A stretch of 24,882 nucleotides of DNA from the IMG/VR virus record IMGVR_UViG_3300006030_000101, positions 1 through 24,882 of that record. One strand, written 5' to 3'. Source of the stretch: a virus. A program made the position numbers and the translations under genes. Positions 8,694-16,087 of this stretch are shown here, piece after piece. Position 1 is the stretch's first letter, and each line of letters opens with the position of its first letter. The notes beneath the pieces are model-generated. The model searched no databases, was not told the DNA's origin, and saw only the letters and a list, made by a program, of their open reading frames with translations.

Positions 8694-8848
8694 TTGTTTA
8701 GCTCCTGCTCAAGTTCCGCTACCCGTTTCTTCGCCGCTTCAAGTTCGCGGAACAATTGGCCGACGCGCAGCACTGCCGCATCGAGCGCCGCGTTACGCTG
8801 CTCAATCAGCATCAGCACACGCCCGTCCATTTCAACCGGGTCAGTCAT
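8690..8848 (-). CDS. Short coiled-coil protein
   Basis: This 52-residue, nearly all-helical protein has heptad-like spacing in the C-terminal two thirds (AVLRVGQLFRELEAAKKRVA, then ELEQELNK), so it should form a short coiled coil. The ATG at 8848 overlaps the fibre gene stop by eight bases; an ATG at 8884 would add 12 residues but overlap more. The stop forms ATGA with the first ejection gene. In P22 the gene between 26 and 7 is gene 14, an assembly factor for ejection protein gp7. This gene is in that place but is far shorter and shows no evident similarity. It could be a chaperone or minor virion part; function is unknown. Confidence 0.65.
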   Translation of the reverse strand: MTDPVEMDGRVLMLIEQRNAALDAAVLRVGQLFRELEAAKKRVAELEQELNK

Positions 8849-9686
8849 TTGTCGTTTTCGCATGTAAGTAGACTGTGGTTCCATTCACTGATATGGTCAC
8901 AGTCCGGTTGGGAGACGTTGGGCTTACGGCGTTCAGGCTGTTCCCAATCGAGACAACGCCGGTAACGCCCAACGTGCCGCTCAGTGTCATACTGGCCCCG
9001 GCAATAGTCCCGGTTAGCGTAGGCGAAGCACTCATGACCACGTTACCACTGCCGGTAATGGCGTTACTCACCAAGCCCTTGCTGCCGTCGGTAAACACCG
9101 CCTGCGAAGCCGTCAGCGACGACAGAATCGGTTGACTGCTCAGGGTTTGCACACCGGTGAAGGTCTGCGCCGCGTCGGTTCGTGCAAGCGTCGAATTGGT
9201 CGAGGGGAACGTATGCGCCGTGGAGTCCGTCCCCGCAAGCGTCAGTGAAGCATTCGTCGTCAGCGTCTTGCCGTCTGTCCCCGCAAGCGTCAGCGATGCG
9301 TTCGTCGTCAACGTCTTACCGTCTGTCCCGGCCAACGTCAGTGAAGCATTGGCGGTCAACGTCTTACCGTCCGCAACAGTCAGCGTCGCCCCCGTAGCGG
9401 GCTGCGTCAGCGCCACCTTGTTGATGCTGGTGGCTGTGGCTACCCCCAGCACGGGCGTGACGAGTGTAGGCGAAGTGGCGCGCACAGGTGCCCCGCTGCC
9501 GGTAGCCGTCACCCATGTTGCCAGCGTGTTCGAGCCGCCGCCTACCAAAAGCTGCGTGGTCAACCCCTGCGTCAGTATCAAGGCGGTTCCCGATACGTCC
9601 GCGAAAAAAGCGTACCATTCCCGCGACGGCCTTCCCGTAGCAGGGTCTACGACAGAGGCGGATTGGGCTAAAGGTATCAGTCTCAT
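8841..9686 (-). CDS. Repeat-bearing tail fibre or needle candidate
   Basis: This 281-residue protein is rich in Thr, Ser, Ala, Gly and Leu. The N-terminal part (1-30, LIPLAQSASVVDPATGRPSR and EWYAFFADVSG) resembles virion-attachment ends of phage fibres. The middle (about 105-153) has three copies of a 16-residue unit of the form DGKTLTTNASLTLAGT, followed by further strand-turn patterns (TFTGVQTLSSQPILSSL, GNVVMSASPTLTGTIAG) typical of trimeric beta fibres. In P22 this slot, after gene 10, holds gene 26, the tail needle plug, but gp26 is a coiled coil whereas this protein is beta-rich. It may be a thin fibre or a non-homologous plug. It is joined to gp10 by ATGA. Structural role likely; exact role unknown. 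Confidence 0.87.
   Translation of the reverse strand: MRLIPLAQSASVVDPATGRPSREWYAFFADVSGTALILTQGLTTQLLVGGGSNTLATWVTATGSGAPVRATSPTLVTPVLGVATATSINKVALTQPATGATLTVADGKTLTANASLTLAGTDGKTLTTNASLTLAGTDGKTLTTNASLTLAGTDSTAHTFPSTNSTLARTDAAQTFTGVQTLSSQPILSSLTASQAVFTDGSKGLVSNAITGSGNVVMSASPTLTGTIAGASMTLSGTLGVTGVVSIGNSLNAVSPTSPNRTVTISVNGTTVYLHAKTTND
9229..9372 (-). repeat. Three tandem 48-base repeats inside the fibre gene
   Basis: Three adjacent 48-base copies start at 9229, 9277 and 9325 and encode the 16-residue unit DGKTLTTNASLTLAGT with small changes. The first two copies are the most alike, which suggests recent duplication. The repeat stays in frame, so copy number could change the fibre length without breaking the gene. 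Confidence 0.9.
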
Positions 9687-11089
9687 GCCGCCGCCAGATA
9701 TGCGTCAGTAATCACGCGCTTCACCGGATCGGTGATTTCCACCCAATAGACGCGCGAATTGGGGCTTCGGACGGAACCCAAACGGTTCCACTTGGTCACG
9801 TAGTCATACTCGCCAAGTTGCCCCATGCTGCGCCACACGGGGTTGCCCCAAGTGTGGCCGCTATCATCACTCCACTTGAGCATGGCCTGCGGGTCTGATC
9901 CTTGCCCGGTTTCCAACCCCACGCCAGTCTCAAACTTGATCGCCAGCGATGCGTGAGCCACCGTGGTGTCCGTGTCGCTACCGCCGAGCGAGCGGCACAC
10001 ACGTATCGACGGCATCGGGTCTCCGTCGTCATCGTAAATATCGAGGCTCAAGTCATACAACCTGCCGTCCTCGTAATCCCCTACGATGTGCCTGCCGTTG
10101 AACTCGACATAGCAGTTAGCGCGATGACGCTCCAACTCGCCACTGATCGTATTGCGGTAAGCGCGGCGGTGCCAAAACCCGCTCGCCACATCGAACACCC
10201 ACGTTTGATCGCCGCCGGGGAATTGAAGCCAAATGAACACATGGCCTTCGTCCTTCTGTGCCCACATCATGCAATCGTCGAAGGCGCCCATCGCGCGAAT
10301 TGCGGTTTCAATCGCGTGCGTGGAAACCCGCACGGGCGTGTAAGCGTTCAAGCGCCACACAACACCCTCGCTGCCGAGGAAGAATAGCGAGTTATCGGCC
10401 TTGCAGATCGACGCACGGCCCGCAAGCCCCGTTTCGATAACCGCGCGGCGGGCGAAGGTGAACGACGCATCACCGCTGTTGTACCAAATCTCGCAAGTCT
10501 TTTCGCCGCCCAAGAATAGCTCTTGGTGATCGACTGCGCACCCAATCAGGTTATCCGGCGCGGCTTCGGCGGAAGCAAAGTCCGCCGAATCCCACGTTGT
10601 CCCGTCTACTGAAATCCAAAACCGTTGCGTGCCGCCTTCGACAACAACGAACGTCTGGTCGAGGATACACACGCCTACCGGGAACGCCGGGAAGTCAACG
10701 TCTGCTACGACAGCGAAAGCCCCACCCGCGTAAGTGTAGGTGTATCCGTACTGGCCGTCCACGAGCAGCATCACAAGACCGTTTGTCTCCATCTGGACAA
10801 CGCCGCTATTGGTGGACAGGGTGCCCAATTCGGTGGCTACGTTTCCGGTCGTCACGGAGTAGAACTTATTGCCGCAGACAAAATAACTCGTGCCTGCGTC
10901 TACCCCCGCGCCACGCACTTGCAGCGCCGCGCCCAGCGTGATGAAGGAAGTCGAACCGTGGGTACCGTACAGCACTTTCCCGGACGGGCTGCCGGGGTCA
11001 ACCTCCAAAAACAGGTTGACGCACTGCTGCGCGTCAGCATTCACGCTGCGCGACTGGTACTCACCCCCGATGAAGTCAAAGGACGGCAT
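9683..11089 (-). CDS. Tail hub / packaged DNA stabilisation protein, P22 gp10-like
   Basis: This 468-residue protein is almost the same length as P22 gp10 (472). It opens with DFIGGEYQSRSVNADAQQCVNLF (residues 4-26, where VNLF-type phrases are typical) and continues with repeated beta blades such as FYSVTTGNVATELGT, FLGSEGVVWRLN and HVFIWLQFPGGDQTWVFD, as expected for the beta-propeller-like nozzle. gp10 assembles under the gp4 ring, closes the channel and carries tailspikes and the needle. The ATG shares a base with the stop of the adaptor (TAATG) and the stop forms ATGA with the next gene. Family and position agree, so the call is firm. Confidence 0.93.
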   Translation of the reverse strand: MPSFDFIGGEYQSRSVNADAQQCVNLFLEVDPGSPSGKVLYGTHGSTSFITLGAALQVRGAGVDAGTSYFVCGNKFYSVTTGNVATELGTLSTNSGVVQMETNGLVMLLVDGQYGYTYTYAGGAFAVVADVDFPAFPVGVCILDQTFVVVEGGTQRFWISVDGTTWDSADFASAEAAPDNLIGCAVDHQELFLGGEKTCEIWYNSGDASFTFARRAVIETGLAGRASICKADNSLFFLGSEGVVWRLNAYTPVRVSTHAIETAIRAMGAFDDCMMWAQKDEGHVFIWLQFPGGDQTWVFDVASGFWHRRAYRNTISGELERHRANCYVEFNGRHIVGDYEDGRLYDLSLDIYDDDGDPMPSIRVCRSLGGSDTDTTVAHASLAIKFETGVGLETGQGSDPQAMLKWSDDSGHTWGNPVWRSMGQLGEYDYVTKWNRLGSVRSPNSRVYWVEITDPVKRVITDAYLAAA

Positions 11090-11745
11090 TAGTAGTTTGT
11101 GTATTCCGTTACTTCATTATCGACACACAGGGCATTCAGCTTGCGGATTTGCAACTCCGCGAAACGGGATTCCTTCATCAGCCGGAGAATTCGCGCCTCT
11201 GGCATGGCGAAGTCGTCCGATATGTCATAAGCGATGATATCCCGCAGCCAACGCAGCATAGCCACATCCACGTCGGGTGCGGTGCTCGCCGCTGTGTCGT
11301 CCGCGATCTTCTCGTACGTGAGTTTGATTGTCGTGTTGGACGTAGGGATGGGCCAGAATACAAAAACGCCGGAGCCAGTATGGAGCGCCTTTTGCGGTAC
11401 GCCGGTAGTCGTCTTATCCATTATTTCCGCGTATGAACGCGGCCCTATGATATCCACCGGATCGTCCATCGAAACGTTCCGCGCGGTCATTCTTATGGGG
11501 AATAGATAATCCGATGCTGCGGTAGCCGTCGCAGCGCCAGCAGATAACGTAAAGGACACCGGCTGCGGCGTAACCTTGCGCCAGAATGTTCCGAGGCGGT
11601 GCATTTCCTTCAACCGAAGGTCGATTGCCTCGAACACAATGGCTTCATCGTCAGCGTTCGCCGTCTGCCCGATGGCGAGCGCGCGCACCTTGCGCAGCAC
11701 CATATCGCGCAATTGCTCTCGTGTGCGGGTGAAGGCGACGGTCAT
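11089..11745 (-). CDS. Head-to-tail adaptor, P22 gp4-like
   Basis: This 218-residue protein occupies the place of P22 gene 4, directly before a gp10-like hub. The N-terminal half is helical (REQLRDMVLRKVRALA, then EAIDLRLKEMHRLGTFWRK at about 39-57), a central beta region follows (FTLSAGAATATAASDYLFPIRM and FVFWPIP), and the C-terminal half returns to helices (LRWLRDIIAYDISDDFAMPE, then KESRFAELQIRKL). This helix-beta-helix layout fits tail adaptor proteins of the P22 and SU10 types, which form a dodecameric ring under the portal and seal packaged DNA. P22 gp4 is shorter (166 residues) and also carries peptidoglycan-hydrolase activity; no such active site is obvious here. It starts two bases after the zinc-finger gene. 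Confidence 0.85.
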   Translation of the reverse strand: MTVAFTRTREQLRDMVLRKVRALAIGQTANADDEAIVFEAIDLRLKEMHRLGTFWRKVTPQPVSFTLSAGAATATAASDYLFPIRMTARNVSMDDPVDIIGPRSYAEIMDKTTTGVPQKALHTGSGVFVFWPIPTSNTTIKLTYEKIADDTAASTAPDVDVAMLRWLRDIIAYDISDDFAMPEARILRLMKESRFAELQIRKLNALCVDNEVTEYTNY

Positions 11746-11747
11746 GG

Positions 11748-12020
11748 CTATGCCTTACAGAATTTAATGTGCGTGGCCGCGCCGAAACCGAAACTCTTGT
11801 GGCACTTCGGGCACTCGGTCAGCTTGATGGTGCGCTGCGGTTCAGGGGCTTCCGCTTCAACGGACGGCTCGCTGGCTGGCTGCACACGCTCAAACTCAGG
11901 CATTCGTTTCAACGCTTCGAGGGTTGCATCGTCGTGGATTATGGCGGGCTTGCCGTTCCAGAACACATACCCGCGAAATTCACGGTACGGCCCGCTGGTA
12001 AATCGATACGCTTCGCTCAT
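11748..12020 (-). CDS. Small C2HC zinc-finger-like protein, unknown function
   Basis: This 90-residue protein has an N-terminal part (1-45) that looks like a small mixed fold (YRFTSGPYREFRGYVFWNGK, then a helix DATLEALKRM). A flexible Glu/Pro-rich linker (48-65) leads to a C-terminal candidate zinc finger, Cys70-x2-Cys73-x10-His84-x3-Cys88. It starts by ATGA overlap with the GT8-like gene and ends two bases before the gp4-like adaptor gene, so it bridges cassette and tail module. No relation to a named family was recognised. It could belong to either group; similar short proteins occur next to head-tail connector genes in podoviruses, but that is recollection only. Confidence is good for a gene and low for any role. 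Confidence 0.75.
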   Translation of the reverse strand: MSEAYRFTSGPYREFRGYVFWNGKPAIIHDDATLEALKRMPEFERVQPASEPSVEAEAPEPQRTIKLTECPKCHKSFGFGAATHIKFCKA

Positions 12021-12661
12021 GCCACAGCCTCCAGTCTCAATAGCTCGTTTGCCCGCGCCGCCATGAAATTCTTACGCGGCCCCTTAAAGTGCAGAATCGA
12101 CGCGCCGCCCCCGGCGTCTAGTGAATTCGGCGCAAAGTTGTAATCTTCGCCGGGAACGATGCGCGTGTCGAACCCGCCCCGTTTAATCAATCGGCACACC
12201 GCCAACTGATCGCCCATCCATTCCTGCATTTTCGGTTCGTAGGTCAATAACTCTTTTTCCGCAGCGGCCCAAAACTCAGGACTGCGGGAAAACACCACGC
12301 CCATGTTGTGCGGCATTTCCGCAAAATAGTCATGCTGTGCGCCGTCATTCTTCAAACGGCTGGCGATGGCGATGTCGAACTGCTCATCAAACACGTTTTG
12401 CACGTTCTTTACCACCAGCACGTCCACGTCGATAAATAGCCAATCCCCCGGGGTTTGGTGATGGCGCATACGAAACACCGCCATCGGGCATTCCTTCGGC
12501 ATCCGTTTCACTTCGTCCACGTTCGGGATGCGTGGGCTGTTAATGTCTGTGAGGTGGACAACCTTCACCCCCGGCATTGTCTGCTTCGCCACTTGCGCGG
12601 CCAATCCACCGAGGTATCGGTATTCTGGCGAGCTACCCACAAGGTAAAAGCCTACGCGCAT
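12017..12661 (-). CDS. GT8-like (GT-A fold) glycosyltransferase
   Basis: This 214-residue protein carries the marks of a retaining GT-A glycosyltransferase. It has a DxD-type metal motif in WLFIDVDVLV (74-83), the NMGVVFSRS strand (119-127), GDQLAV (150-155) and the C-terminal ILHFKGPRK (189-197), which recalls the HxxGxxKP loop of family GT8. It lacks the long N-terminal region of many GT8 members, so it is compact. The ATG at 12661 has GGAGG four bases upstream and overlaps the oxidoreductase gene by 10 bases; the stop forms ATGA with the zinc-finger gene. It probably transfers a sugar from a nucleotide donor. Donor and acceptor cannot be read from sequence. It closes the sugar cassette. 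Confidence 0.88.
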   Translation of the reverse strand: MRVGFYLVGSSPEYRYLGGLAAQVAKQTMPGVKVVHLTDINSPRIPNVDEVKRMPKECPMAVFRMRHHQTPGDWLFIDVDVLVVKNVQNVFDEQFDIAIASRLKNDGAQHDYFAEMPHNMGVVFSRSPEFWAAAEKELLTYEPKMQEWMGDQLAVCRLIKRGGFDTRIVPGEDYNFAPNSLDAGGGASILHFKGPRKNFMAARANELLRLEAVA

Positions 12662-13308
12662 AACGCCTCCGTGACTTTAACGCCAAGTTCCATCCCCTGC
12701 GTATCCGGGCGGCCTTCCCCGCACGCGGCCAAGAATTCGCGGATCAACACATCCATGGGGCGCGGGTCGGTAAACGGGTCGTCGTAGGTCAATTCGCCGT
12801 CTTTGGTCACAACGGTGAAGCAGCGCTTCACACGTTCCTTTGTTATCTGCATGTCGTGCGGTGCGAACTCCCCGCCGATGTCCATACGCATCGCCACGTC
12901 ATGAGCGCCCCAATCAAATACCGGGTCGGTCTTACACGGCCCGCCGCTCACCGAGTACACGCCCACTACGCCACCAGCAGCGGCCTTTTTCACTTCACGC
13001 CATGCCGGGGAGTACAGGTGGGTGTGGCCGACAAAGCCCACTACGCCCATACGCTTCGCAAGCTCCAGAAGCGCGCGGGCGTGGTCAACGCGCAGGCACA
13101 TGGGTTTCTCGATAAGAACGTGGCACCCGTGAGAGAGCGCGGCCTTGGCGATGTCGTAATGCGTTTCAGCGGGCGTGGCGATGATAATGGCGTCCGCGTC
13201 GAGCCTCGTGTCACGCGACGTAACCCACGCCAAAGGCTCGCCCAACTTCTCGAAAGTTTTGACGTACACCCGGCCCCAATGACCGTTTCCGATAAGTCCG
13301 ACTCTCAC
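12652..13308 (-). CDS. Short Gfo/Idh/MocA-type NAD(P)-dependent oxidoreductase
   Basis: This 218-residue protein has the dinucleotide loop GNGHWG (residues 7-12), the strand IIIATPAETHYDIAKAAL (41-58), the family hallmark EKP with its catalytic-type lysine (67-69), VGHTHLYSP (93-101) and WGAHDV (133-138), where family members keep an active-site histidine. It would oxidise or reduce a sugar keto or hydroxyl group. Usual members have about 320-350 residues. This one is shortened between the second strand and IIIATP and in the C-terminal sheet, yet keeps the key motifs and reads without interruption. The GTG at 13308 gives a GTGA junction with the methyltransferase; a TTG at 13320 is less likely. 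Reduction of a methylated keto sugar is a sensible role but unproven. Confidence 0.9.
   Translation of the reverse strand: MRVGLIGNGHWGRVYVKTFEKLGEPLAWVTSRDTRLDADAIIIATPAETHYDIAKAALSHGCHVLIEKPMCLRVDHARALLELAKRMGVVGFVGHTHLYSPAWREVKKAAAGGVVGVYSVSGGPCKTDPVFDWGAHDVAMRMDIGGEFAPHDMQITKERVKRCFTVVTKDGELTYDDPFTDPRPMDVLIREFLAACGEGRPDTQGMELGVKVTEALCA
12666..12670 (-). promoter_or_regulatory. Ribosome binding site of the GT8-like gene
   Basis: GGAGG on the coding strand lies four bases before the ATG at 12661, within the final codons of the oxidoreductase gene. It suggests this enzyme is made at a good rate inside the operon. Confidence 0.65.
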
Positions 13309-14402
13309 GCAGTCACCCAATTAAGTTCCGGGTGCTTCGCGCGTAGCTCGCTGGCGAAGTTCCACGCAAAGGGGAAAATCTTGTCGTATTTCCGCGTTCT
13401 GAATTCGTCAAAGGAAATTATCGGCACGTTAAGCCCCGGCGTGTACAGCCCTTGCTTCTCCGGCGTGTCGTCAACGATAAAGTCTACCCGCGCGCCGGTT
13501 TGGTACATGAATGTCGTTGCCTTGGCGGGCGCTCCGTAACCGGCGATGACGCCACGCACCCCCTCAAGCGGGTTTTTCACCGTCTGCACCGCCTGCACCA
13601 ACGCGGCCAAGTCGGGCGGTTGCTCGTCAACCTCAAAGGTCGATGGCGTCTTTTTCGCGTAGACGCGAATCGAGCCGCCTTGGTTGGCCGTGTGCTTTAC
13701 GTCGTGGATATGGAAGCCCTCCGATAGCAGGAATTTCTGCAACGGTTTCAGGTGGTGGTAATCAAGGTGCTCGTGGTAGATCATGTCCCAATGCCGCCCT
13801 TCAATCAGGTCATGAAGGTACTGAACCTCGAAGATAAAGGTTCCGGTGTCCTTTAGGAACACATCGACGCCGCGCACCACTGAGCGCAAATCGTCAATAT
13901 GCGCCAGCACGTTTACCGCTACCACGACATCCACCGGCCCGTTAAACGGGTAGAAGTCCCTCGCAAACCGCAGGTTAAACTCCGCGCGTATGTTGGGCAG
14001 TGTTTTACAACTGCTCGCCGGGTCAACGCCCAGCACGCGATTGCCCTTCGCCGCAAGGTAGTCAAGCAGCGTGCCGTCGTTACTGCCGATTTCAAGCACA
14101 AAACCGGCGTTGCCGATTTCTTCCGCCAGTCCCGATAGGTGCTCTTTGAACGACGATGACACGCCGGACTTATACCGATAGTCTCCGTACAAAACGGCGG
14201 GATCGACAACTACACCAAGCTGGACGTGTCCACACTCCGCGCAGTTCGTAAGCCCGAGCGGGTACACCTCCTGCTCCTTGGGCGCGGGCACATACCCGTT
14301 CGCAAGGGGCGTGGGTTTCAGGTCAAGTAAGGGCTTGACTTGGTTTCCACAGAGCCGACAGGTCTGGCGAGCGCACCAAGTCTGCGGTGTAGGTGTCTTC
14401 AT
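13305..14402 (-). CDS. SAM-dependent sugar C-methyltransferase
   Basis: This 365-residue protein has the three-part layout of the TylC3/TcaB9-type NDP-sugar C-methyltransferases. It has an N-terminal zinc domain with cysteines 15, 18, 54 and 57 (CRLCG, CAECG), a SAM-binding Rossmann domain with EIGSNDGT (104-111), the family signature YHEH (209-212), and a C-terminal domain with AGYGAPAKATTF (287-298) and YTPGLNVPI. Characterised relatives methylate carbon 3 of dTDP-4-keto-6-deoxy sugars; that substrate is an inference here. The ATG at 14402, with GAGGA nine bases upstream, is chosen over an upstream start at 14531 whose first 43 residues look like out-of-frame cupin sequence. The stop overlaps the GTG of the oxidoreductase. 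The family call is strong. Confidence 0.95.
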   Translation of the reverse strand: MKTPTPQTWCARQTCRLCGNQVKPLLDLKPTPLANGYVPAPKEQEVYPLGLTNCAECGHVQLGVVVDPAVLYGDYRYKSGVSSSFKEHLSGLAEEIGNAGFVLEIGSNDGTLLDYLAAKGNRVLGVDPASSCKTLPNIRAEFNLRFARDFYPFNGPVDVVVAVNVLAHIDDLRSVVRGVDVFLKDTGTFIFEVQYLHDLIEGRHWDMIYHEHLDYHHLKPLQKFLLSEGFHIHDVKHTANQGGSIRVYAKKTPSTFEVDEQPPDLAALVQAVQTVKNPLEGVRGVIAGYGAPAKATTFMYQTGARVDFIVDDTPEKQGLYTPGLNVPIISFDEFRTRKYDKIFPFAWNFASELRAKHPELNWVTA

Positions 14403-14745
14403 CTCTGATGTTCCTCGCAAAGCACAGCAGTTGGGTATCCACCGGAAAAACGGTCGTATGCTCCATGTACGGTTCTGTCCGCACCCACTCACCGGCGGGC
14501 ACCGTTTTGTGCGACACGGCTTTCTCGCCAACAGGCCGCTCGTAGTACTCCATGCGCCCGCTCACCACGTAGCAGATGTGCCAATCAGTGCGGTGCCAGT
14601 GATTCGAGCGAATAGACCCCGCCTTGCTATAGATGGCGATGATGCTGTTCACCGGCTCGTGGCAAATGCTCTCGATTAGCCCGCGCGGATCGTCCACAAT
14701 GAGGGAACCAGCCTGCGGATTAAACTTCTGTGTTTCAAGCTGCAT
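14323..14745 (-). CDS. Cupin-fold sugar enzyme candidate
   Basis: This 140-residue, single-domain cupin has a likely metal site from His49 and His51 (SNHWH), His56 and His96 (PYMEH). Other cupin features are the turn YVVSGRMEYYE and the phrase VPAGEWV. Small cupins beside sugar genes often isomerise or epimerise nucleotide-linked sugars, but some are sensors, so the reaction is not settled. The ATG at 14745 is chosen because AAGGA lies five bases upstream and the overlap with the TPR-glycosyltransferase gene is then only 11 bases. Starts at 14766 and 14781 would lengthen it by 7 or 12 residues without a better ribosome site. Its 3' end overlaps the methyltransferase gene by 80 bases. Confidence 0.87.
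   Translation of the reverse strand: MQLETQKFNPQAGSLIVDDPRGLIESICHEPVNSIIAIYSKAGSIRSNHWHRTDWHICYVVSGRMEYYERPVGEKAVSHKTVPAGEWVRTEPYMEHTTVFPVDTQLLCFARNIRDEDTYTADLVRSPDLSALWKPSQALT
14412..14416 (-). promoter_or_regulatory. Ribosome binding site that sets the methyltransferase start
   Basis: GAGGA on the coding strand lies nine bases before the ATG at 14402 and inside the cupin gene. It supports a real 80-base overlap between the two genes. Confidence 0.6.
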
Positions 14746-16087
14746 GTTTTTCCTTGGAGTAGACATGATCGGATAGGTCACGGGCGATGCGTGTAATCAC
14801 AGCGGGCCAGCCTTCGTCGCCCTGCCGGTAGAGGCGAACGCTACGGTACCACGGCATGCGCCCCGAGTTCTGGTAGCGCCACGCCGGAGTTTTGGGTGTC
14901 ATCACCCAGCACGGGACACCGAGCGCCCCGGCGAGGTGGATTACCGACGTGCAACACGATATGACAAGATCGCAAGACTTAACAAGGCAAGCAGTGTCGT
15001 AATAGTCGTTGCTCTTTGCGAGTGGCGTCTGGATGATTTCATACCCTTGCCCCTCCACCATTTTGATTTCATCTTCACAATCGGTGTACTGCAGCGACAC
15101 GAATTCGCAATTCGGCGTGCCCAAAATCGAAGCCCACCACGACAACGGTATCGAACGGCGCAACACGCGGCCCGCCTTCGCTCCACCCGTCCACGAGATA
15201 CCGACACGAAACTTATTGCCCCGGCGCGGCGTGGCCTCGGCCTTCAAATACGCGGCGCCGGGGAACGACTCCTTGGTATTTCTAAAGTATTGGCCTAAAG
15301 AGCCAATCGAAATCTGATAATCGAAGTCAACATCTTTGACCCACGAAGGCGATTGATCCTCGCGGGTGCCGTAGACTTCACAGCCGAACGCGCGTGAGAA
15401 AAGATTTTCCAGCCGGTCGTAGCTCTCAAGAATGACCTTATTGGTTTTCATCAAGTCAGGGATCATCGACGCGAACATGATCTCATCACCAATGCCCTGC
15501 TCGCCGTACACAGCCACAGTGCCGGGGGATTTACCGTCCCATCGCGGTCTGCCGCCAAGCGCGCGATCTATGCGCATCTTGGACTGGAACCCCCAATCGT
15601 ATTCTTTCCAACCTTGCTCCCACTGCCCGTGCTCCAACAGCAGCAGGGAGTAATTCCAGTGCGCGAAGGGGAGCGTGCTGTCCATCGCCAGCGCCTTTCG
15701 GCACAGTTCTTCACCCTTCTCCGGTTCCCCGGTTTCCACATACAGACTTGCGTATGTAGCCAATGTCTCCGCCGTGGGGTTCTTCTTCACGGACTTGTCA
15801 AACCACCTGCGCGCTTCTTCGTGCAGTCCGGCGTATTTGTACGCCAACGCGAGGTTGCAGTAGATATCGGACGGAACTTCCTTCTTGGTGTTTTCGATTG
15901 ACCTGTGGAGAAACACCATCCCCAGCCCCGACTTGCCCATTTGCAAGTAGAGCGTACCCACCGTGGCGAGTAGCCCGGCGTTATCCCTGTTTTGCGTCAG
16001 TAGCTTGTCGTAGGCTTCCAACGCGCCGTCAAAGTCACCAGCGTTGTGAAGGGCTTGCGCTTCCTGCCACAAAGGTATATCGGCCAT
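14735..16087 (-). CDS. TPR-domain glycosyltransferase-like protein (GT-B fold)
   Basis: This 450-residue protein joins about four to five tetratricopeptide repeats (residues 3-165, with typical phrases such as NLALAYKYAGLHEEARRWF) to a C-terminal domain of the heptosyltransferase/O-GlcNAc transferase-like GT-B type. Motifs in that domain are GEQGIGDEIMFAS (195-207), VGISWTGG (295-302) and the nucleotide-sugar site DLVISCCTSVIHLAGALGVP (373-392). Such proteins transfer sugars to lipopolysaccharide, other glycans or proteins; TPRs usually recognise a protein partner. It is the first gene of the sugar cassette and lies 39 bases after the probable decoration protein. No good ribosome binding site is visible, so expression may be modest. 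The fold is confident; donor and acceptor are unknown. Confidence 0.9.
   Translation of the reverse strand: MADIPLWQEAQALHNAGDFDGALEAYDKLLTQNRDNAGLLATVGTLYLQMGKSGLGMVFLHRSIENTKKEVPSDIYCNLALAYKYAGLHEEARRWFDKSVKKNPTAETLATYASLYVETGEPEKGEELCRKALAMDSTLPFAHWNYSLLLLEHGQWEQGWKEYDWGFQSKMRIDRALGGRPRWDGKSPGTVAVYGEQGIGDEIMFASMIPDLMKTNKVILESYDRLENLFSRAFGCEVYGTREDQSPSWVKDVDFDYQISIGSLGQYFRNTKESFPGAAYLKAEATPRRGNKFRVGISWTGGAKAGRVLRRSIPLSWWASILGTPNCEFVSLQYTDCEDEIKMVEGQGYEIIQTPLAKSNDYYDTACLVKSCDLVISCCTSVIHLAGALGVPCWVMTPKTPAWRYQNSGRMPWYRSVRLYRQGDEGWPAVITRIARDLSDHVYSKEKHAA
14751..14755 (-). promoter_or_regulatory. Ribosome binding site that sets the cupin start
   Basis: AAGGA on the coding strand lies five bases before the ATG at 14745, inside the last codons of the TPR-glycosyltransferase gene. 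It favours this start over ATGs at 14766 and 14781. Confidence 0.65.

Follow-up and report, generated by a model that had tools for sequence, protein, structure and literature searches.

The gene that directly follows the gp10 homologue in the window (the whole stretch of viral DNA that was analysed, 24,882 nt; the source record holds part of a genome, 24.9 kb long) probably encodes the needle-slot protein of a P22-like, short-tailed phage, a reading that was given a probability of about 0.6. Three copies of the protein would form an axially placed trimer, with residues 1-36 probably entering the lumen of a gp10-type hexamer and closing the DNA channel; the fibre body and its cap would be directed towards the cell, and the length of the protein probably shifts in steps of 16 residues as 48-nt units are gained or lost. 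Because a front end typical of the slot is joined to the body and end of a tail fibre, an exchangeable fibre of adjustable length may be what closes the DNA exit of this phage. The points in favour of the needle reading are the place after gp10, the survey of the N-terminal motif, the needle of cyanophage Pan3, the sharing of modules and cap with motif-free proteins, the change in unit number between L004 and L011, and the separate tailspike candidate. Against it stand the fragility of the Pan3 link, the lack of similarity to gp26 and gp9, a tail spike of ctn9Y15 that bears the motif, and a sheet-free model of the body.

The 281-aa ORF opens with ATG, has the coordinates given in the earlier, sequence-only reading, and lies directly 3' of the gp10 homologue, its start overlapping the end of that gene (Table 1). 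The gp10 homologue matched PHROG 578 ('head closure Hc3', E 4.6e-111) and, in a sequence search of the PDB, entries 7eeq (E 1.9e-26) and 9vyg (E 2.9e-23). The adaptor gene adjoins it without an intervening gene, and the upstream part of the operon specifies the SU10-type adaptor, a P22-type portal, and a capsid protein. Downstream, the ORF at 7215-8693 encodes a 'DNA ejection' protein (PHROG 598). The tail of P22 is formed by gp4, gp10, and gp26 in this order, in agreement with the position of P22 gene 26, and the ORF at 8841-9686 occupies the place of the gp26 needle, between the gp10 and ejection genes; the needle position predicted from gene order was borne out. The PHROG 598 match covered only residues 292-477 of the ejection protein, and not the approximately 290 N-terminal residues. 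The slot gene is followed, ahead of the ejection gene, by a 52-aa ORF of coiled-coil type (8690-8848), with matches that were weak and of coil type only. The stretch from the capsid region to the adaptor (12017-16087) contained ORFs that by eye resembled glycosyltransferase, oxidoreductase, and methyltransferase genes, and two relatives carried annotated cargo at a similar place.

Table 1. Coordinates of the slot protein, its parts, and neighbouring genes in the window
Feature	Position	Strand	Residues	Basis or remark
Needle-slot protein with fibre-type body	8841..9686	-	281 aa	Whole ORF including stop
N-terminal motif, presumed gp10 dock	9579..9686	-	1-36	Leave-target-out profile
Promiscuous module	9462..9575	-	38-75	Matches in motif-free proteins
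Repeat-bearing body module	9159..9461	-	76-176	Best matches up to 76% identity
Three 48-nt / 16-aa repeat units	9204..9347	-	114-161	
Body module	8946..9158	-	177-247	82-85% identity to L045, L046, L052, L055
C-terminal cap, last 27 residues	8844..8924	-	255-281	Conserved terminal place
gp10-type head-closure protein, presumed socket	9683..11089	-		PHROG and PDB matches
Adaptor (gp4 position)	11089..11745	-		Pfam SU10_adaptor, E 7.3e-10
Separate beta-helix tailspike candidate	1595..3466	-		Pfam Beta_helix, E 6.6e-14

Standard databases said little about the slot protein itself. Pfam returned a single weak and implausible match (YukD, E 0.11), NCBIfam and a PDB sequence search with the protein alone returned none, and there was a weak match to PHROG 6002 (E 1.6e-4), which the module protein of locus L010 (see below) also matched. 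By profile, its N-terminus falls into a family whose motif heads the post-gp10 gene of most of the relatives studied. The motif, around VDPxTGxxSREWYxFF, lies within the first ~36 residues. A phage collection held 42 records with a gp10 relative; 27 were examined, the other 15 being duplicates or close relatives by name and score, and 21 of these 27 had a post-gp10 gene that opened with roughly PxxxVVDPxTGxxSREWYxFF. The motif was unclear in the post-gp10 gene of ctTUS972, ctkAd229, PBR31, CBW1004C-Prop1, and PfAn1, and in Pam1 a Pan3-like protein, Pam1_10, took the place of a motif protein. Seventeen of the 21 proteins were used to seed a motif profile (four were not), and with the target excluded this profile recovered it as the sole above-threshold match among 456 window ORFs (E 1.7e-7). 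With a second leave-target-out profile, of 35 rows, the target scored 31.5 bits, and the highest score among 1000 shuffled versions of its sequence was 8.5. No second protein with the motif was seen by profile scan in the 24.9-kb genome piece, and in the tailspike candidate the motif was not found above threshold. A 590-aa protein of ctn9Y15, labelled a tail spike in its annotation, starts with the motif as well. In phage DSL-LC05 (L084, about 6420-6500), a gene annotated from 6499 appears to start further upstream, and the in-frame upstream extension bears the slot motif.

A single-sequence scan of IMG/VR with the window gp10 gave no relatives, but a scan with a gp10 alignment did find them, and the best 80 of at least 80 loci were used; L120 ends at gp10, leaving 79 testable loci. 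The motif (≥8.7 bits) was present after gp10 in 76 of the 79 testable loci among the best 80, starting 9-105 nt past the gp10 stop codon, and the 76 ORFs comprised 74 distinct ones, with that of L110 close to a profile seed. Elsewhere in these loci motif scores rose to 14.1 bits (L145), a value exceeded after gp10 in 71 of the 79, and the five weakest motif loci count mainly by position. The motif was not found in L117, L138, or L186, where the starts of the slot genes were vaguely similar by eye. Slot proteins ranged from 48 aa (Pam5_10) to over 1300 aa, that of CBW1004C-Prop1 having 63 aa, and eight IMG/VR loci carried motif proteins of 80-98 codons, all directly after gp10; by eye, the slot proteins of L176 and L179 were spike-like. 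Slot proteins vary this much in length, and their composition runs from helix-type to Thr/Ser/Gly-rich, which makes P22 gp26 an unsuitable standard for judging them. The target has both the position and the motif by which the class was defined here, and the survey points to a short N-terminal key as the mark of the post-gp10 slot in many uncultured phages. The proposal in the sequence-only reading of a 'non-homologous plug' does not hold for an N-terminus of this family. Its choice between a plug and a separate thin fibre loses part of its force, since the protein resembles a fibre body set upon the slot's own N-terminus.

A solved structure offers a point of reference. In cyanophage Pan3, the gene after the gp10 homologue (Pan3_08) corresponds to PDB 9vzi, 'Needle protein', with three chains, and the first 69 residues of this needle form three chains in 9vyg, together with six chains of the gp10 homologue. 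Pam1_10 is related to the Pan3 needle (E 2.4e-7). A motif profile built without Pan3 did not retrieve the Pan3 needle from the PDB. The motif profile (35 rows) scored 28.0 against a Pan3-clade profile (17 rows), a value reached by none of 200 column shuffles; using the 29 IMG/VR rows only, the score was 12.8, which 9 of 200 shuffles reached and which was not significant. A third slot-gene clade (13 rows) linked to both the motif and the Pan3 sets, at 35.0 and 27.4, respectively (0/200 shuffles each). With a moderate sequence linkage, a loss of significance on the IMG/VR rows alone, and a negative PDB search, the presumed dock and the Pan3 needle are probably homologous. The two proteins are alike in being encoded directly after homologous gp10-type genes and in a similar N-terminal pattern (VPIVDxxGRP in Pan3), with a moderate profile-profile match. 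They differ in that homology with the target is not significant without bridging phages, and in what follows the N-terminus: a helix-type, Ala-rich stretch in Pan3 (by eye), whereas the target passes at once to Thr/Ser/Gly-rich modules. When slot genes at 80 loci with a gp10 of the Pan3 clade were read by eye, a good many had neither of the two patterns; within that clade, then, the motif is not universal. The Pam1 gene annotated 'needle' is 51% identical to a Pan3 ejection protein (E 3e-64; L096 8863-9747 and 7714-8445), and the label, named in PMC9382816, looks misplaced because the neighbouring hypothetical protein Pam1_10 is the one that matches the solved Pan3 needle.

Behind the motif, the slot protein is, on its sequence matches, a mosaic of promiscuous fibre-type modules. 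Residues 38-75, 76-176, and 177-247 all matched proteins without the slot motif, the first of these segments at 33 of 41 loci. For the repeat-bearing module the best 80 of 475 relatives were analysed. In 45 of these 80 loci it was carried by a gene of its own that immediately precedes gp10, in most cases by 4 nt, and whose product had a different N-terminus in those read; 37 of the 45 loci also had a motif gene after gp10. The module gene lay downstream of gp10 and the motif gene in 2 of the best 80 loci, and 33 had no gp10 within the available DNA. Motif and module were joined in a single ORF in none of the best 80 of the 475 loci, and the repeat-unit pattern had no other match in the compared slot-protein set; other such fusions may exist, since only best-ranked matches were examined. 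The proteins encoded directly before gp10 (L002-L031 and similar, repeat-bearing and of roughly 260-350 aa) share the target's body module and 16-aa units at up to 76% identity, and unlike the target they have another N-terminus, without the motif, and another C-terminus. With the module on the slot protein and the adaptor adjoining gp10, a fusion or relocation is plausible. Relatives of the body module also occurred in bacterial MAG contigs (13 GTDB loci, L312-L324), including Flavobacterium and candidate phyla, and these contigs are possibly prophages or phage contigs.

The codon-phase repeat units (residues 114-161) are, in order, ASLTLAGTDGKTLTTN, ASLTLAGTDGKTLTTN, and ASLTLAGTDSTAHTFP. 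Tandem Repeats Finder placed the array at 9225-9371 with a period of 48, 3.1 copies, and a score of 210, and listed only one other array in the window, with a score of 46. At an offset of 48, the sequence matched itself at 81 of 96 bases, compared with at most 51 in 2000 codon shuffles, confirming the three in-frame 48-base repeats that had been described from the letters alone. An artefactual array was considered and rejected, as the frame was kept and homologous arrays were found in many contigs. Among the 26 distinct module proteins listed in addition to the target, consecutive units formed chains of up to four, and a few proteins had none. Proteins L004 and L011 agreed at all of their 334 aligned residues, and a single added 16-residue unit set them apart. 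Differences of 16 residues at the array separated L018 from L034 and L023 from L051, a difference of 32 separated L021 from L011, and L003 and L014 differed by 16 residues at the array plus other small gaps. Gain or loss of units is therefore real for the repeat module, as seen in a protein other than the slot protein, and the possibility that length changes in this manner, raised in the sequence-only reading, is supported by the homologous module of other phages.

After residue 45, the residues T, S, G, N, V, and Y together made up 0.58 of the slot protein, versus 0.39 in P22 gp26, in keeping with its earlier description as Thr/Ser-rich. Of 96 slot proteins ranked by this content the target came 16th, or 20th when rounded values are used for the ordering, which shows that many proteins of the slot after gp10 have a fibre-like composition; helix-type bodies are likewise common. 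The description as 'beta-rich' agrees with the composition; the AlphaFold2 monomer, a low-confidence model (mean pLDDT 61), has strands within residues 4-48 and 262-275 only, none in the repeats, and no helix. The repeat region was the best-modelled part (block means of 72-86 for residues 91-150), yet strandless, a combination that is compatible with an intertwined oligomer, and the body may have a beta fold. Neither this model nor that of the L011 module protein (mean pLDDT 46) was strong enough to name a fold, and of 216 Foldseek matches none reached E ≤ 0.001, so that comparison was set aside.

A search with the last 51 residues was followed up in the best 80 of 101 relatives (L325-L404), and in all 80 SPTSPNR stood exactly 27 residues before the stop codon. 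The cap has the form SPTSPNRTxTxxxxGTxxYLxAKTTND, and its bearers are mostly large viral proteins of very different length: there were 75 distinct ORFs, of which 58 had an intact 5' end and measured 184-1268 codons. None of the 80 cap-bearing proteins carried the slot motif. Four were searched further; Pfam gave no match, and PHROGs gave one strong (1.3e-21) and one weak (0.0054) match to 'tail fiber protein' and none for the other two, with no match covering the C-terminal end. A PDB search with the cap profile yielded only two chance-level rows, and tblastn of the phage collection with the target C-terminus yielded no match. Among the better matches, identity in the body modules and the cap is 60-85% and the length of the cap does not vary; the modules are shared with fibre-type proteins. 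On these matches, the 27-residue segment is probably a fibre-end cap, which may serve folding, trimerisation, or contact, and it is a separate lead.

The main rival to the needle reading is a peripheral fibre or spike, in which up to six copies would be attached through the motif to an outer site of the gp10 or adaptor ring, the protein being a side fibre and the channel being closed by something else. It holds this rank because of the annotated tail spike of ctn9Y15, where the motif would suit a peripheral site. The spike-like appearance (by eye) of L176 and L179, the fibre type of both cap and body modules, and the occurrence of the body module in another protein, encoded before gp10, at 45 of the best 80 loci all fit such a placement. 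Slot proteins of 48 or 63 aa, however, are too small to make a useful side fibre, and the window already has another tailspike candidate. The Pan3 slot protein, moreover, was called a needle by its depositors and is present as three chains with six gp10-type chains. The peripheral site is an unlikely choice.

The needle reading could also be true in its front part alone, the motif being the plug and everything distal to it neutral, freely exchanged ballast. The shortest slot proteins (48 aa in Pam5, 63 aa in CBW1004C-Prop1, and 80-98 codons in eight IMG/VR loci) speak for this, as does the dispensability in the laboratory of the C-terminal domain of the P22 needle, as described in PMC3741392. 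Neutral ballast is improbable for a protein whose modules and cap persist at 60-85% identity in the better matches, with a constant cap length, and whose array changes length in whole units. Least credible of all is a true gp26-type needle with an overlooked coiled coil. It has gene position on its side, the same as that of P22 gene 26, but the Thr/Ser/Gly-rich composition is unlike that of gp26 and the motif profiles gave no gp26 match. The monomer model, of low confidence, has no helix, and a coiled coil of P22 type, doubted in the earlier reading, is probably absent.

Within literature titles and abstracts, a search to which subscription papers were mostly closed, no description was found of the slot motif or of a fibre-bodied protein in the needle slot. 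A broader proposal, which is tentative and falls somewhat below even odds, is that the gp10 lumen serves as a general socket for a peptide key of ~36 residues behind which phages exchange any shaft, the one here being a length-tunable tail fibre that bears a widespread 27-residue fibre cap and occupies the DNA exit; the needle would then be an adjustable, receptor-touching fibre and not a membrane-piercing coil. The N-terminal key offers a way to annotate needles that have no common body sequence, and a fibre-bodied needle makes it testable whether a needle must pierce, or need only plug and sense.

Among known systems, P22 gp26 and Sf6 gp9 share with the target the slot between the gp10 and ejection-protein genes. 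Neither showed significant similarity to the motif profiles; a motif profile searched against gp26 gave E 14 and a profile comparison E 0.65, so that similarity to the virion-binding N-terminal domain of gp26 was not detected. In PMC3741392, P22-like needles are described as exchanging their tip, which is not essential in the laboratory, and keeping their N-terminus. The target resembles them in this general plan, a retained N-terminus with an exchangeable distal part, and differs in that the whole shaft, not the tip alone, appears to be of another kind, that of a fibre. The needle of SU10, gp18, is a nozzle plug with a beta-prism C-terminal domain, according to PMC9509320, and a needle that plugs the nozzle and ends in a beta-type domain is a proposed likeness to the target, drawn from description and not from sequence. 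According to the same paper, the shaft of gp18 is a coiled coil homologous to that of P22, and in this respect it differs from the fibre-type body of the target.
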